Source of the DNA: Anaerobaca lacustris
Lineage (GTDB): Bacteria > Planctomycetota > Phycisphaerae > Sedimentisphaerales > Anaerobacaceae
Length of the DNA: 64,000 nucleotides
Assembly (NCBI RefSeq): GCF_030012215.1
Contig: NZ_JASCXX010000008.1
Span: forward strand, 62,001-126,000
Direction: 5' to 3'
Shown: one piece after another, positions 47,122 through 53,119 of the stretch
Layout: every line of letters starts with the position of its first letter
How positions within the stretch are numbered: the first letter of the stretch is position 1
Translations under genes and position numbers: made by a program
Notes under the pieces: model-generated
Databases searched by the model: none
What the model saw: only the letters and a program-made list of their open reading frames with translations
What the model was told of the DNA's origin: nothing

Positions 47122-49185
47122 TTAGGGCCGCGCGTGCTTGAGGAGGCGGTGGATTCGCAGCAGCTCGCCGACGCTCCAGGCCTGGGCCCAGCAGCCCTTG
47201 GGCTCCTGCGGGGCATCGCCGTCGAAGATCTCCGCGATGCTGCCGAGACAGCCGTCGGCCGTCACGTGGTTCACAAGCGGCTCGATCATCTCCGTCGCTC
47301 GGTGAACGCTGGCCGGCTTGAAGTCGTTGACCTTCAGATAGGCCTCGACGAAGGGCCCCGTCAGATAGGGCCAGACCGTTCCCTGGTGATACGCCGCGTC
47401 TCGCCTGCGCTGCGGACCCTCATACCGGCCCTGATAGCAGGCGTCGCGGCGGCTCAGCGTGCGAAGTCCATACGGCGTGAGAAGCTCGAACTCCACGGCG
47501 GCGACGATCGCCTTCTGCCGGGCCCCGCTCAACGGCGGACCGTACGGAAGCGAGATCGCAAAGATCTGATTGGGCCGCAGGCTCGCGTCGACCTGCCCGT
47601 CCGGCATGACCGTGTCGTTCAAATACCCCAGCGACTCGTTCCAGAACAGCTCGCCAAAACTGTCGCCGGCCTGCTGAGCCATCTTGGCATACCGTTTCGC
47701 GTCGGACACGAGGTCCATGCGCAGACAGAACTCGTGCAGGTGACACAGGGCGTTGTGCCACAGCGCGTTGACCTCGACGGGCTTGCCCCAGCGGGGCGTG
47801 AACGCGACGCCGTCGTACATGGCATCCATCCAGGTCAACTGCGTGTTGCAGTCGCCGGCGCGGACGAGGCCATCGGCATCGACGTGGATGCCGAACCGCG
47901 TGCCGTTCTGATAGGAGTCGACGATCCAGCGGATCACCGGCAACAGTCTCTGGTGGAAGGTGTCCTTGTCGTCGGTGGCTTCGAGGTATTGAAACGCGGC
48001 GTGGATGAACCACAGCGAGGCATCGACGCTGTTGAAGTGAGCCGGTCCGCTGCGATCATCGAAGCGGTTCGGAATGAGCCCGTCGTCGGCGGCCGCCGCA
48101 AATGTGCACAGCACCGATCGGGCCTCGTCGAATCGCCCCGTCGCGAGCAGCAGGCCGGGCAGCGCGATGAACGTGTCGCGACCCCAGTCGGCAAACCACG
48201 GGTACCCGGCTACAATGCTCGTGCCCTCCACGTCGCCGTAGCGCCGTTTGACGATGAACTGATCGGCCGCCAGGACGAGCCTGCGGTCCGTCGCGTCGGC
48301 CGCCGCTCCGGAGAGAATCTGTCTCTGCCGGTCGGCCAGGCGGTTCTTGATCGTCTCGACGTCCACCTGGACCGACTCCGGCCGATAGCGTTCATCGAGA
48401 CGGGCCCAGAACACGAGCCGCCCATCCTCTTCGACGATGCCCCGGAAGAAGCCCGGCGTCCAGAGGTCCTCGCCCGCCTGCTGGCCTCGCCGTCGGTTGG
48501 CGCGGTACGTGAAGTCGAACCACCACTGCGGATCGCCGTCGAAATCCATGCCCGAACAGCCCATCCGCAGGGCACAGCCGCCCGGCGTATCATGGCGCAC
48601 CACCACGCCCGACTCCAGGCGATCCCATCGCAGCGGCGCGTCGCTGTTCTCTGTGTGGTGGAAATCCCTGAGGCCGACGAACGGACGCACGATGAGTTCC
48701 ACCGGGTCCATGAGGCCGTCGAAGGTGTATTCAACCACGACCGTATCGCTGTGGTCGGCGAGGTAGACGGCCTTGTGCAGCTCGATCGATTCGAATTCGT
48801 AGATGAAGTGCGCCCCGGTATCGCGGCGGAATTGGCGCAGATAGGGACTCGGCGCCAGAACCGGATCGCCGGAGAACTCGAACGTGGACAGATGGAACGT
48901 CTGCGAACCGCAGACGACGATCTCCTGGCAGTTGGACAGAGCCATGACGCGATTGACGGGCGGCGCGAGCGAACCGATCAGCAGGCCGTGATAGCTGCTC
49001 GTGTTGCAGCCAACGATGGTCCCCGCGGCGTAGCTGCCCCGCTCGTTGGTCAGGAGCCATTCGCAGTCCAGCAGGTTCCCGATCTCGCCGTCGATGGCGA
49101 CCCGGACGACTTCCTCGGCGCCGGTCTTCTGTCGTGTCAACACAGCCACTCTCCCGTGAATGGGCAATCCCGATCTCTGAAACAA
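47122..49185 (-). CDS. Glycogen debranching enzyme (amylo-alpha-1,6-glucosidase type)
   Basis: Debranching enzyme of the archaeal/bacterial GDE type, up to 687 residues. The N-terminal domain begins near LLDCEWLLTNERGSYAAGTI, the usual opening of this family; the catalytic six-hairpin domain contains GYPWFADWGRDTFIALPGL (acid region), GDCNTQLTWMDAMYDG and YHQGTVWPYLTGPFVEAYL. It hydrolyses alpha-1,6 branches in glycogen. The longest frame starts at TTG 49185; in-frame GTG codons about 13-15 residues in (near 49149 and 49143), beside GGGAGA, are alternatives. Third gene of the minus-strand glycogen operon, 34 nt after GH57. Confidence 0.94.
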   Translation of the reverse strand: MFQRSGLPIHGRVAVLTRQKTGAEEVVRVAIDGEIGNLLDCEWLLTNERGSYAAGTIVGCNTSSYHGLLIGSLAPPVNRVMALSNCQEIVVCGSQTFHLSTFEFSGDPVLAPSPYLRQFRRDTGAHFIYEFESIELHKAVYLADHSDTVVVEYTFDGLMDPVELIVRPFVGLRDFHHTENSDAPLRWDRLESGVVVRHDTPGGCALRMGCSGMDFDGDPQWWFDFTYRANRRRGQQAGEDLWTPGFFRGIVEEDGRLVFWARLDERYRPESVQVDVETIKNRLADRQRQILSGAAADATDRRLVLAADQFIVKRRYGDVEGTSIVAGYPWFADWGRDTFIALPGLLLATGRFDEARSVLCTFAAAADDGLIPNRFDDRSGPAHFNSVDASLWFIHAAFQYLEATDDKDTFHQRLLPVIRWIVDSYQNGTRFGIHVDADGLVRAGDCNTQLTWMDAMYDGVAFTPRWGKPVEVNALWHNALCHLHEFCLRMDLVSDAKRYAKMAQQAGDSFGELFWNESLGYLNDTVMPDGQVDASLRPNQIFAISLPYGPPLSGARQKAIVAAVEFELLTPYGLRTLSRRDACYQGRYEGPQRRRDAAYHQGTVWPYLTGPFVEAYLKVNDFKPASVHRATEMIEPLVNHVTADGCLGSIAEIFDGDAPQEPKGCWAQAWSVGELLRIHRLLKHARP

Positions 49186-49219: not shown

Positions 49220-50473
49220 TCAGTTCGTCACCGTGGCGATGGGCGTCGCCACGGCCGCCGACCCCGACGATGGATGCGGCACGGCCTGAATCGCCGGAGC
49301 CGCACAACGCCGCTGAAGATGATCCAGCACGTTCATGAAATTGATGTACGAATCGTACGGCGAATCGTAGGGATTGAAGTACTTGTGGACGTCGCCGTCG
49401 GCGAAGTACTTCGTGCACATGTAATAGAAATGATCTGAAACCTGGAGACGGCGCCAGTCGGAGAGGACCTGCTCGTCGTTGGCCCGCTTGATCTTCTTCT
49501 CAAGGCGATACAGCTCGTGGATGGCGTTGGACTGCATCGGATTGCCCAGCCAGGCCGAAAGGTCGCGCTCTGTATCAGCCCAACTGATCATGTGCCGCAC
49601 GTCCACTTCACCGACCGCATCGTAGGCGGCGGCCACCTCACTGGGGGTCTTGAAGTTGTTGTCCGGGTTCCTGAGGATTTCCTCGGGAAGGTGCCGCACG
49701 AAGTCGAAGATGCCCGTGTCTTCCCACTGGTGCTCGCCCAGGGTCTCGTAGTCCATGAACAGATTGACCACGTGGCCGTTGCCGTTGACGGCGTTGACCC
49801 ACTGGCTAAACTTCGAGGCCGTCAGGGGCCATTCGACCCAATGACGGTTGGAGAACCGGAAGGCGATATCGTCGCTGAGCGAGTAATTCTTCAGCAGCAA
49901 CTTGAGGTGCTTGCATCCTGTCGGGCGGTAGAGGAAGTTCGGGCTGCGGTAGCCGAGGATGTGATCGGCGCCCTCGGTGATGACGGCGTCGAAGCACCCC
50001 ATCGCCTCGATCAGAAGGGCCAGCTCGTTGTTGTAGATCAGTTCGGTGTTGCGGAACACTTTGGGCTTCTGCCCGAACAGGTCTTCGATCGTCTCGGCGT
50101 GTTTGCGGACCTGCTCGACGAACTCCTGCCGGGAATAGAGGAAGCTCAGGCTGTGGTAGTAGGTCTCCGCCAGGAACTCGACGCACCCGGTGCGGGCCAG
50201 TGCGTGAAAGGTGCTGAGGACTTCCGGGCTGTACATCTGGAGCTGCTCCAGCAGGATGCCGGTAAGACTGTAGGCGACCTTGAAGCGGCCCTGGTGCTTG
50301 TCGATGAGCTTCAGAAGGAGTCGGTTGGCCGGAAGATAGCACTTGTTGGCGACTTTGCGGCAGATCGCGGCGTTCTTGTGGTCATCGAAGTACCGCTGAT
50401 CGTTGTCGAAGACCGTGTAATGACGCAGCCGCATCGGCTGGTGGACCTGGAAGTAGAAGCAAACCGAAGGCAT
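49220..50473 (-). CDS. Glycoside hydrolase family 57 protein
   Basis: GH57 alpha-amylase/branching-type enzyme, 417 residues, cytoplasmic. VCFYFQVHQPMRLRHY is the first conserved region (HQP), VFRNTELIYNNELALLIEAM has the likely Glu nucleophile, and VVNLFMDYETLGEHQW carries the acid/base Asp. It acts on alpha-glucans such as glycogen or maltodextrin. A short tail rich in Ala, Pro and Ser follows the domain. AGGA site upstream of the ATG. It is placed between a glycogen-synthase-like transferase and the debranching enzyme, all on the minus strand. Confidence 0.93.
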   Translation of the reverse strand: MPSVCFYFQVHQPMRLRHYTVFDNDQRYFDDHKNAAICRKVANKCYLPANRLLLKLIDKHQGRFKVAYSLTGILLEQLQMYSPEVLSTFHALARTGCVEFLAETYYHSLSFLYSRQEFVEQVRKHAETIEDLFGQKPKVFRNTELIYNNELALLIEAMGCFDAVITEGADHILGYRSPNFLYRPTGCKHLKLLLKNYSLSDDIAFRFSNRHWVEWPLTASKFSQWVNAVNGNGHVVNLFMDYETLGEHQWEDTGIFDFVRHLPEEILRNPDNNFKTPSEVAAAYDAVGEVDVRHMISWADTERDLSAWLGNPMQSNAIHELYRLEKKIKRANDEQVLSDWRRLQVSDHFYYMCTKYFADGDVHKYFNPYDSPYDSYINFMNVLDHLQRRCAAPAIQAVPHPSSGSAAVATPIATVTN

Positions 50474-50527: not shown

Positions 50528-51844
50528 TCAGACCGCCACGAGCAGTTGCTCGTAGATGGCGGCGCACTGTCCGGCCGCGTCCTTCCACCTCAGCTTGCGG
50601 ACCTCGAAATTGCCGTGATTGCGAAGCGTCATCCGCAGAGGCGAATAGCGCAGCACCGCCACGATCTTGTTGGCCATCTCGTTGACGTCCCAGAAATCGA
50701 CCTTCAGAGCGTGGCGCAGGACTTCCGAGACGCCACTCTGTTTGCTGATGATCACGGGCACGTCGTTGTCCAGGGCCTCCAGCGGCGCAATGCCGAACGG
50801 CTCCGAGACCGACGGCATGACGTACAGATCCGCCATCTGGTAGATTTTTCGGACGTCGTCGCCTCGCAGGAATCCCGTGAACAACACTTTCTGTCCGATC
50901 CCGAGTTGCGCCGCCAACTCGATGGAGCGGTACATCAGATCGCCCGATCCGGCCATGACGAACTTGACGTTGTCCATGGCCTCGAGCACCTTCTTGGCGG
51001 CGTGCAGGAAATACTCCGGGCCCTTCTGCATGGTGATCCGGCCCAGAAACAGGACCAGCTTCTCGTCGCGTTTGATGCTCGTCGGGCCCACCGACCAGGC
51101 GCCGTTGCGTTCGACGCCGTTGTAGACCACATCGACCTTCTCCGGCGCGATCCCGTATCGGCTGATCACGAGACTCCGTGTGAAATGGCTGACCGTAATG
51201 ACCTTGTCGGCCCGCTCCATGCCCTCCCGTTCGATGTCGTAGACGACCTGGTTGACGTGCTCGCCGGAGCGGTCGAACTCGGTCGAATGCACGTGGACGA
51301 CCAGGGGCCTGCCCGTCACCGCCGCCACCGCCACGCCGGCCGGATAGGTCATCCAGTCGTGGGCGTGGACCACGTCGAATTGCTCCTCTCGAGCCAGCCG
51401 GACCGCCATCGTGGCATACCGGCGGATCTCGCTGTACATGTCGCCGCTGTAGTCGCCGGCGTGGAAGTCGTCCTCGGCCTTGCCCTGCTCGATCATTTCC
51501 CGTCGCAATCGCAGGCTTTCCTCTACTCGTTCGTCGTAATTCTCCGGATTGGCATACGCCTGCAACGGCGACGCGATCGTCCTGAAGATCACGTTCGACA
51601 GGGTGTCCTCGACGTCGGTGACCGAAGCGGCGCTCCGGCGGGAACGTGGCGACAGGAGCTTGACGTGCGTCACATACTCACTCTCGACCGTCTTCGGGAG
51701 CACGAAGGTGACCTTCACGCCGAGTTGGTCCATCGCCCGCGTCAGACCGTAGCAGGCCGTTCCCAGCCCCCCACTGATGAAAGGCGGGAACTCCCAACCC
51801 AGCATGAACACCCGAATGTGCCCCCCCTCAGCATTCCGTCCCAT
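50528..51844 (-). CDS. GT4 glycosyltransferase, glycogen-synthase-like
   Basis: Retaining GT-B transferase of 438 residues. The N-terminal VFMLGWEFPPFISGGLGTACYG is the GlgA-like Lys-x-Gly-Gly-variant acceptor loop (here ISGGLG), and the C-terminal half has LVLFLGRITMQKGPEYFLHA and MPSVSEPFGIAPLEALDNDVP with the E-x7-E donor motif. It probably elongates alpha-1,4-glucan with a nucleotide-glucose. First gene of a glycogen operon followed by GH57 (54 nt) and the debranching enzyme. GAGG site before the ATG. An alternative is a sugar transferase of another polymer, but the neighbours favour glycogen. Confidence 0.9.
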   Translation of the reverse strand: MGRNAEGGHIRVFMLGWEFPPFISGGLGTACYGLTRAMDQLGVKVTFVLPKTVESEYVTHVKLLSPRSRRSAASVTDVEDTLSNVIFRTIASPLQAYANPENYDERVEESLRLRREMIEQGKAEDDFHAGDYSGDMYSEIRRYATMAVRLAREEQFDVVHAHDWMTYPAGVAVAAVTGRPLVVHVHSTEFDRSGEHVNQVVYDIEREGMERADKVITVSHFTRSLVISRYGIAPEKVDVVYNGVERNGAWSVGPTSIKRDEKLVLFLGRITMQKGPEYFLHAAKKVLEAMDNVKFVMAGSGDLMYRSIELAAQLGIGQKVLFTGFLRGDDVRKIYQMADLYVMPSVSEPFGIAPLEALDNDVPVIISKQSGVSEVLRHALKVDFWDVNEMANKIVAVLRYSPLRMTLRNHGNFEVRKLRWKDAAGQCAAIYEQLLVAV

Positions 51845-52270
51845 AAGTCCTCACTTCTTCCCGGGGCCTGCAGAGCCAAGCCGTTCTGGAACCCGGCCAC
51901 CCAACATGCGCCTGCTGAACAGAGCTCGAAAGGAATACTCCCATAGCACTCCTATATACCCTAAGGTATCGGCTGCCGAGTCCGTACGCTTTATTCCGGT
52001 GCGCAAAAAAATTTCGGCTTGTCACAGGAGTATCCATCGTATTCATCGGCTATCGACCGGCCTCAAATACAGCAATTCTGCAAAAAATCCCTTCTTCAGG
52101 CACTATTGCATGTATTTTATGGGCTGTTGCCGGCGACCCCCACCCTCCGTATGCGATCAGCGGCGCCAAAGAGCAAAGCCGTTCCGAGTCTGCTTCCCGA
52201 AACGGCTCTCGTTACGACACCTGTCCGGCAACAACGCAATGCGTGGACAGGCCCAAATCTCCCTGCCGGG
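51845..52270. other. Intergenic region with terminator-like hairpin
   Basis: 426 bp between the glycogen operon and the histone-fold gene. It contains the hairpin annotated at 52177-52207, a near-palindrome TACCCTAAGGTA near 51957-51968 and AT-rich stretches (AAAAAAATTTC near 52004) that could hold the glycogen-operon promoter, which was not pinned down. No coding frame is convincing. Confidence 0.5.
52177..52207 (-). terminator. Candidate terminator of the histone-fold gene
   Basis: On the minus strand AGCCGTT (52201-52207) pairs with AACGGCT (52177-52183), followed by TTGCTCTTT. It lies about 64 nt past the stop at 52271. Confidence 0.5.
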
Positions 52271-52459
52271 CTAAAGGTCCTGCGCCTTGACGGTGCTGCG
52301 ACGGTTCGCCTTGGCGCGGGCAACGGCCGCATCGAGAAGATCGTAGACGCGATCGCTGATGGCCTCAAGGGCCTCCGACGAGGTCATCATCTTCTGATCC
52401 TTGATGTGGGCCTTCACTTTGCTTGCCACCACCAGAGGCTCCCTTGTCTTGTTTGCCAT
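52271..52459 (-). CDS. Histone-fold small protein (bacterial histone-like)
   Basis: Protein of 62 residues from the ATG at 52459, behind an AGGGAGG site; in-frame sequence further upstream is not part of the domain. The layout fits a single histone fold: short helix (LVVASKVKAHIKDQ), loop MMTSSE, long central helix (ALEAISDRVYDLLDAAVARAKAN), and a C-terminal RRSTVKAQDL. The last segment matches the archaeal-histone loop-2 signature (RxTVxAxD), and R54 and D61 are seven residues apart as in the histone Arg-Asp clamp. It resembles small bacterial histones such as Bdellovibrio Bd0055, as far as memory of that family allows. It probably binds DNA as a dimer. There is no tail or second fold. Confidence 0.82.
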   Translation of the reverse strand: MANKTREPLVVASKVKAHIKDQKMMTSSEALEAISDRVYDLLDAAVARAKANRRSTVKAQDL

Positions 52460-52798
52460 CGCAATCGTCCTCCCTGATAAGATGAGAAAACCCGGAAATC
52501 GACATTCCTCGGCACCGCGATCTTCAGCGCCGCACGGCATTGGATGATCTTATTGTCCATCGATTCGGGCATTGCAACAAAAAAAAGCGTCAACCCCCTA
52601 AATTTGCGCCCTTGTGAGGCCGATAGGCACCAATGAGCTTGGCGCCGGCGGGCGTGCCTCGTAGCCGCCACCTGCCGCGATCCAGGCACAGACGAACCAG
52701 GAGAGAGGGCCAGACGCCGCCGGCTCTGGGCCGCCAGGGCGCGCGATGCCGGACTCCTGGAGGATGAGAAATACGCTGTTCTGTTATGGAGCGCGAAG
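52460..52798. other. Divergent intergenic region
   Basis: 339 bp between the histone-fold gene and the acidic small-protein gene. It must hold both promoters. A run of T (A on the plus strand, near 52578-52586) and TTGCAA on the minus strand (52574-52579) are the only promoter-like signals seen; spacing to a -10 box is not clear. No repeat or gene recognised. Confidence 0.4.
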
Positions 52799-53119
52799 AT
52801 GGGAAAGCCGATGGACAAGAGCAACAACGGACACGCAAAGCTCAAGGACCTCGTGGTCGTCACACTGCTGAGCGACCTGGACCAGGCGAAGGAGTACCAG
52901 ACCCTGCTGAAGCTCAACGACATCCCTGCGACGATCAAGGAGCAATTCGATCCCGCCGGCGAGCACAAGGGGGTGGCGATCATGGTCCCCGAGGACTTCC
53001 TGGACGAAGCCCACGTCGTCATCGAGTCGCAGGACGCCTACGATGACTTCTACGACTACGCCCTGGAAGACGAAGACGAGGTGGACCTCGACACCGATTA
53101 CCTCGACGACGAGTTCTGA
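52799..53119 (+). CDS. Small DUF2007-like protein with acidic tail
   Basis: Protein of 106 residues. Residues about 18-75 resemble the DUF2007 ferredoxin-like signalling fold (LVVVTLLSDLDQAKEYQTLL, KLNDIPATIKEQF, VAIMVPEDFLDEAHVVIES). The last ~30 residues are strongly acidic (Asp/Glu/Tyr-rich, ending DYLDDEF). Start at ATG 52799 or 52811. Function unknown. It is transcribed divergently from the histone-fold gene and followed by another small gene 97 nt later. Confidence 0.75.
   Translation: MGKPMDKSNNGHAKLKDLVVVTLLSDLDQAKEYQTLLKLNDIPATIKEQFDPAGEHKGVAIMVPEDFLDEAHVVIESQDAYDDFYDYALEDEDEVDLDTDYLDDEF

Follow-up and report, generated by a model that had tools for sequence, protein, structure and literature searches.

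A small FtF-type histone of Anaerobaca lacustris, widespread in the order Sedimentisphaerales

The stretch of the Anaerobaca lacustris genome analysed here (64,000 nucleotides of contig NZ_JASCXX010000008.1, hereafter the window) encodes a 62-residue protein that is a real histone of the already described FtF (face-to-face) kind. Directly supported are its predicted fold, its residues and conservation, its locus with a terminator-like hairpin, and the HU genes that accompany it. We consider it likely that the protein would form an FtF homotetramer wrapping about 60 bp of DNA without sequence preference, acting as a nucleoid protein beside HU and made from its own single-gene transcript. The gene and its translation signal are as follows.

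52271..52459, minus strand: FtF histone gene, 62 codons plus stop (translation, PDB sequence matches, model and fold search, conservation)
52469..52474, minus strand: ribosome-binding site GGGAGG, nine bases 5' of the histone ATG (read in the sequence; identical in 6/6 genus members)

The ATG is located at 52459 and the stop codon (TAG) at 52273-52271; the plus-strand reading of 52271-52459 is an antisense frame. On the minus strand the frame stays open over 89-92 codons, and the 62-codon start is best supported because of the GGGAGG site, the conservation of start and site together in 6/6 genus members, and a stop codon immediately 5' of the equivalent ATG in the relative L007. A GGAGG motif within 20 bases 5' of the chosen start was counted by eye in 26/30 loci, a figure biased upward because the script favoured starts having such a site. 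The gene is under purifying selection, with dN/dS of 0.03-0.14 in 15 pairs among six genus members and a mean pN/pS against the window gene of 0.19 (range 0.02-0.31) over the core of 30 loci. Its codon bias, 0.50 on the EF-G scale, was mid-range among the window's likely genes, below the 0.71 reached by other long frames there, and does not point to high expression.

Searched with phmmer, the protein found its best PDB sequence match in HLp of Leptospira perolatii (9qt0; E 1.8e-12), followed by HBb (Bd0055) of Bdellovibrio (E 7.8e-6 and 9.9e-6) and HTkC of Thermococcus (0.004). A profile of 30 rows returned HLp at 8.1e-24, HBb at 3e-9 and 3.9e-9, and HTkC at 1.1e-6. AlphaFold modelling with 89 aligned sequences yielded a mean pLDDT of 91.5 and a pTM of 0.70, with helices at residues 12-20, 28-51 and 59-61. 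The model from the first 30 close sequences reached a pLDDT of 74.3 and produced no matches in the PDB fold search, whereas the 89-sequence model gave clear ones. Foldseek placed HLp on top (E 8.1e-5 and 9.3e-5; TM by target length 0.94), superposed with rmsd of 0.9 and 0.7 Å over 56 columns; the first nine PDB rows were HLp, HBb and HTkC, with archaeal and eukaryotic histones otherwise appearing only at E 0.14 and above. Z scores from VIA-align were 8.6-8.8 for HLp, 8.5-8.7 for HBb and 8.0 for HTkC, the next rows being at 6.2 and below. The predicted fold points to an alpha-3 histone.

The first-pass annotation, made from the letters alone, had described a single histone fold of 62 residues with a short first helix and an RxTVxAxD end carrying an Arg-Asp pair, and had proposed a histone/DUF1931 profile search and a structure prediction. 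The match to a solved bacterial histone and the 89-sequence model bear out the fold; the end reads R54-S-T-V-K-A-Q-D61-L, with Arg and Asp seven residues apart, and not only helix 1 is short in the model, but also the third helix, which has three residues. The profile search led to HLp, with DUF1931 below the Pfam cut-off, and the nine leading rows of the single-chain fold search, all of them bacterial or archaeal histones, gave no non-histone placement.

We regard it as extremely unlikely that the frame is a pseudogene, a spurious frame or a non-histone helical protein. Such a reading could draw on its length of only 62 codons and on the family searches, as NCBIfam gave zero matches with the protein and Pfam gave only sub-threshold ones, to DUF1931 (20.3 bits, cut-off 21.8) and I/LWEQ (16.6 bits, cut-off 27.5). 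However, purifying selection, the kept start and ribosome site and the wide presence across the order all speak against it, as do the confident model and its histone matches, and conservation has already refuted it.

Published FtF histones are ring-like tetramers held by R48 and N52; R54, T56 and D61 make up their RxTxxxxD motif, and helix 1 carries K16; R48 and N52 are reported absent from bacterial dimer histones, a truncated third helix is the defining mark of alpha-3 histones, and the third helix of archaeal nucleosomal histones has about 10 residues (PMC11390915). The window histone has all the strongly conserved FtF positions: R48, N52 and R54 for the tetramer (numbered by the HMM profile), T56 and D61 of the RxTxxxxD motif, and K16. 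Its third helix, residues 59-61 of the model, has the 3-4 residue length of the FtF group. By contrast, the dimer group lacks the R48 and N52 that this protein has; the DUF1931 pseudodimers (PF09123) consist of two fused folds, whereas here there is one, and the DUF1931 match covers 35/138 positions; and the archaeal nucleosomal histones have a long third helix and an RKT loop in place of its three-residue helix and RST loop.

The R48/N52/R54/D61 set was present in 107/107 distinct sequences, own included (L001-L030 and L036-L145, identical cores merged), which were drawn from the overlapping sets L001-L030 (30/30), L036-L115 (80/80) and L116-L145 (30/30). Among 20 hand-picked weaker planctomycete matches, from 19 genomes and 15 families, the set was kept in 10 and not in the other 10, several of which resemble HBb with N or K at 48, D at 52 and RKTVM. 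Dimer-like planctomycete sequences, in which position 48 is K, N or A and position 52 is D or G, were seen only among the weak matches, for instance at loci L147-L150, L154, L158 and L159. Some of the 10 weak matches having the FtF residues score below dimer-like ones against the profile, so that the profile score alone cannot sort the two kinds. Judged by these residues, Planctomycetota appear to hold both FtF and dimer-like histones. N52 is not a strict FtF mark, since HTkC, a tetramer in its crystal (PMC11390915), has Glu in this place in the alignment.

HLp and HBb are tied by fold, and the choice between an FtF and a dimer histone therefore rests on sequence. Here R48 and N52 argue for FtF and not for a Bd0055-like protein, and by its residues the window protein is assigned to the FtF alpha-3 histones. 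A Bd0055/HBb-like dimer that would bend or sheathe DNA without a stable tetramer is, in our judgement, quite unlikely: HBb is second by sequence and equal by fold, its identity in structural alignments is 43-45 percent, and overall similarity fails to sort the kinds, some FtF-residue planctomycete sequences matching the profile more weakly than dimer-like ones; but the two residues reported absent from dimers (PMC11390915) are both in place, and dimer-like sequences were seen only among the weak planctomycete matches. Bd0055, which the first-pass annotation had offered as the studied comparator, is accordingly not the nearest by sequence. The same annotation had left the mode of DNA binding open. 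By fold alone it stays a tie, whereas it would be best read from HLp (tetramer, wrapping) rather than from the sheath or bending of Bd0055, because the profile ranks HLp over HBb and the window histone has R48 and N52.

HLp (PDB 9qt0, 9qt1, 9qt2; PMC12701072) likewise has one histone fold and a similar length, with 42-43 percent identity in structural alignment; no other bacterial FtF histone of known structure is among the PDB matches found here. Its tetramer residues R49, N53 and R55 correspond to R48, N52 and R54, and the RD clamp is common to both. The positions at which it touches DNA, A13, S14, K15, K17, K21, T27, G29, T56 and T57 (PMC12701072), map to A12, S13, K14, K16, K20, T26, S28, S55 and T56 of the window histone (HLp number = window + 1), so that the contact lysines of helix 1 are kept, while G29 and T56 of HLp are replaced by S28 and S55. 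Across 30 alignment rows A12, S13, K14, K20, S55 and T56 were invariant, with K16 being K in 28 and R in 2, T26 being T in 29 and S28 being S in 28. The interface residues S52, T61 and F63 of HLp are also changed, to A51, Q60 and L62.

The archaeal FtF histone HTkC of Thermococcus kodakarensis (PDB 9f2c) shares the truncated third helix and R48 at 34-36 percent identity, but differs by Glu instead of N52. HBb/Bd0055 of Bdellovibrio bacteriovorus (PDB 8cmp, 8fvx, 9ezz, 9f0e) has the common fold, the RxTVxxxD end and the helix-1 lysines, but carries S and D at the places of R48 and N52 in the alignment; it has been reported as a dimer bending DNA or forming a sheath around it (PMC10627809, PMC11317129). 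The archaeal nucleosomal histones HMfA and HMfB have the histone fold (Z 5.9-6.1) and the Arg-Asp clamp in common with the window protein at about 20 percent identity, but their third helix has about 10 residues against 3, and the window histone is without the K that follows the clamp arginine in them (RST, not RKT).

From HLp we infer by analogy that the window histone dimerises, forms a tetramer, binds and wraps DNA and has a role in the nucleoid. The long middle helix would join two chains head to tail into a dimer, and two such dimers would close into a ring-like tetramer via R48, N52 and R54, with the R54-D61 clamp stabilising it. Lysines K14, K16 and K20 of helix 1, together with the loops T26-S28 and S55-T56, may touch the DNA backbone, and about 60 bp of DNA would be wrapped around the tetramer independently of sequence. 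Points that stand against FtF wrapping are the equality of HBb by fold, the changed HLp contact and interface residues, the Glu of HTkC in the place of N52, the absence of the histone from one near-complete relative (G036, below) and the codon usage, which shows no bias of high expression.

The histone is widespread in the order Sedimentisphaerales, with matches in 54/61 genomes (own and 60 relatives) and in 31/32 of those with at least 90 percent completeness and at most 5 percent contamination. By rank, it was found in 5/5 genomes of the genus, 24/31 of the rest of the family and 24/24 of the rest of the order; the first-pass view of a single-fold histone in a planctomycete proved right. The own genome has one copy: a wide profile at E 1 detected no second histone and no doublet was above the DUF1931 cut-off. 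Four single-contig order genomes of 98-99 percent completeness (G039, G044, G048, G058) carry it, and a cultured test organism may therefore exist.

Further from the order the distribution is patchy, both across the phylum (matches in 155/391 sampled genomes) and across the class, in which 35/148 sampled genomes match, all but 7 of them (28) belonging to the own order; the class sample includes 93 genomes not listed by kinship. A named scan found 159 loci, of which 80 were kept; the titles of 17 name Sedimentisphaerales or Anaerohalosphaeraceae, and most of the remaining titles go no further than Phycisphaerales, Phycisphaerae or Planctomycetota. Other labels occur on the relatives L090 (Nitrospira, 69 percent identical) and L105 (Deltaproteobacteria, 67 percent identical), which may reflect binning error or transfer. 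On the contig titled Deltaproteobacteria, the histone (L105, 4001-4189) lies between a nucleotidyltransferase and a MutY-like gene, without glycogen-type neighbours, as could result from transfer between phyla or misbinning. Variants in length and number were also seen: L017, L115, L138 and L140 have long lysine/alanine-rich N-terminal tails where the window histone has a short N-terminus, one assembly (L051 and L115) has both short and long forms, and genome G111 encodes three histones (L140, L152, L153), one of which lacks R48 while the other two have both R48 and N52. A viral origin was considered and is ruled against by searches of viral contigs (single-protein search) and of phages (E 0.01), neither of which returned a histone relative; a plasmid search gave one distant match, from a haloarchaeon, at 38 percent identity.

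All of the 7/61 genomes without a histone match belong to the own family. The clean natural absence is G036 (99 percent complete), where at L171, bases 600-1520, the divergent gene and the glycosyltransferase that usually flank the histone are kept intact with nothing histone-like between them; searched with a wide profile at E 1, this genome showed no histone elsewhere. In G007 (L174) a 13-codon frame with its ribosome site upstream of the glycosyltransferase joins a histone-like start to the last nine residues, and is either an internal deletion or an assembly fault. In G026 the histone place is off the contig, because the glycosyltransferase starts at base 26. G011 and G024 (83 and 74 percent complete) gave no glycosyltransferase at E 1e-60 either, and in G012 and G029 only more distant copies of it, with 57 and 59 percent identity, were found. 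In G033, which counts among the matches, a run of N breaks up the gene. As G036 is near-complete and has no histone, the gene is not essential everywhere; it is strongly kept, yet not indispensable.

HU/IHF-type genes were detected in 57/61 genomes, and the four without them (G004, G018, G049, G053) are 80-87 percent complete. The idea of a histone in place of HU is not supported by these counts. G036 and G007 both have HU, in 2 and 1 copies. In combining histone and HU, the window organism resembles Bdellovibrio, which has both, and differs from two Leptospira species reported to be without HU (PMC12701072). The genome of A. lacustris itself has five HU/IHF-type genes (PF00216, whole genome), while most relatives have one or two. 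Alongside HU, the histone would act as a nucleoid protein.

Around the histone, the window holds the following features.

52175..52209, minus strand: terminator-like hairpin with a 14-bp stem and a 7-nt loop, then GCTCTTTG (RNA fold; hairpin rule over 30 loci)
50528..51844, minus strand: starch/glycogen-synthase-type glycosyltransferase, downstream neighbour, not part of the histone (Pfam Glycos_transf_1 and Glyco_transf_5)
49220..50473, minus strand: GH57 glycosyl hydrolase, conserved neighbour (Pfam PF03065; 67/80 named loci)
47122..49185, minus strand: glycogen debranching enzyme, conserved neighbour (Pfam GDE_C and GDE_N; 56/80 named loci)
52799..53119, plus strand: small acidic protein of 106 aa, divergent conserved neighbour (68/80 named loci)

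The hairpin folds with z -3.96 over 52175-52225, but only -1.90 over the wider 52155-52273. A hairpin with a T-rich tail at most 200 nt from the histone stop was present in 24/30 loci against 3.3 expected (20 shuffles each), under a rule of a stem of at least 7 pairs, a loop of 3-14 and a tail with five T among ten bases, the count beginning two bases inside the stem; one of the 6 loci missed is that of the genus member L003, despite the similar look of its aligned bases. A stricter built-in terminator scan and a promoter scan of 51700-52900 both found none, and an Rfam search of 51800-52900 for an RNA element had no match up to E 1. Given the hairpin 3' of the gene, the histone is probably a single-gene transcript ending in its own terminator, and would be made from it; single-gene transcription has been published for alpha-3 histones (PMC11390915). 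On the other side, towards the divergent gene, a T-tract (minus strand) and short blocks at 52520-52600 are conserved in 6/6 genus members, and are possibly shared promoters.

The glycosyltransferase accompanies the histone in 71/80 named loci, on the same strand in all 71, and in 28/30 of L001-L030; its first aligned base is 279-667 bases from the histone (median 518). GH57 likewise lies downstream on the same strand in its 67 loci. The divergent small gene upstream is on the opposite strand in all 68 loci that have it. Its 106-aa product, which we take to resemble DUF2007 signal-transducing proteins, matched no Pfam family at E 0.001. All these counts over the 80 named loci are lower bounds, because several loci are short contigs. 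In L081 the debranching enzyme lies on the other strand and side relative to the histone, and in families f4 and f5, four genomes of the order (L125-L128) keep the histone with none of the usual neighbours matched in the 3-kb loci. Among the best 30 loci of the phylum search, a glycosyltransferase was within 3 kb in 6/12 from the order and 0/18 from elsewhere. The shared place of the locus argues for vertical inheritance of the histone in much of the order. The neighbours of HLp are different, SMC and methionine aminopeptidase instead of glycogen-type genes.

The position of the window histone upstream of the glycosyltransferase (71/80 named loci), GH57 (67/80) and debranching (56/80) genes might suggest that this histone-fold protein regulates locally, acting for instance on the adjacent glycogen-type genes, and is not a global chromatin protein. 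We find this very unlikely, since the terminator-like hairpin stands between the histone and these genes in 24/30 loci, G036 keeps the flanking genes without the histone, L125-L128 carry the histone without matches to glycogen-type neighbours, and the Leptospira relative HLp binds DNA nonspecifically (PMC12701072). A nucleoid protein remains our preferred reading.

The first-pass annotation had connected the histone with the unusually condensed nucleoids of planctomycetes, a putative link that has to be weighed against its patchy occurrence in the phylum and class. The presence of FtF histones in Planctomycetota has been stated before (PMC11390915, PMC12701072), as has the persistence of histone genes in this phylum (PMC10627809). 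In the open-licence literature no paper was found that pairs a histone with Sedimentisphaer- or Anaerohalosphaera, and the word glycogen is absent from the main texts of the two FtF papers (PMC11390915, PMC12701072). No description of the order-wide locus, of its pairing with HU in the order or of the natural loss came up in the open-licence literature consulted.

The finding adds an FtF histone from another phylum that is widespread and mostly present in one copy, with a stable locus, one clean natural loss and a place beside HU, not replacing it. As a further and unlikely reading, Sedimentisphaerales may have a mixed chromatin of DNA-wrapping FtF tetramers and HU, in which the placement at glycogen genes would reflect a nucleoid role in storage or starvation and losses like that of G036 would be natural knock-outs. 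The question of what a wrapping histone adds in a bacterium already having HU is hereby made concrete.
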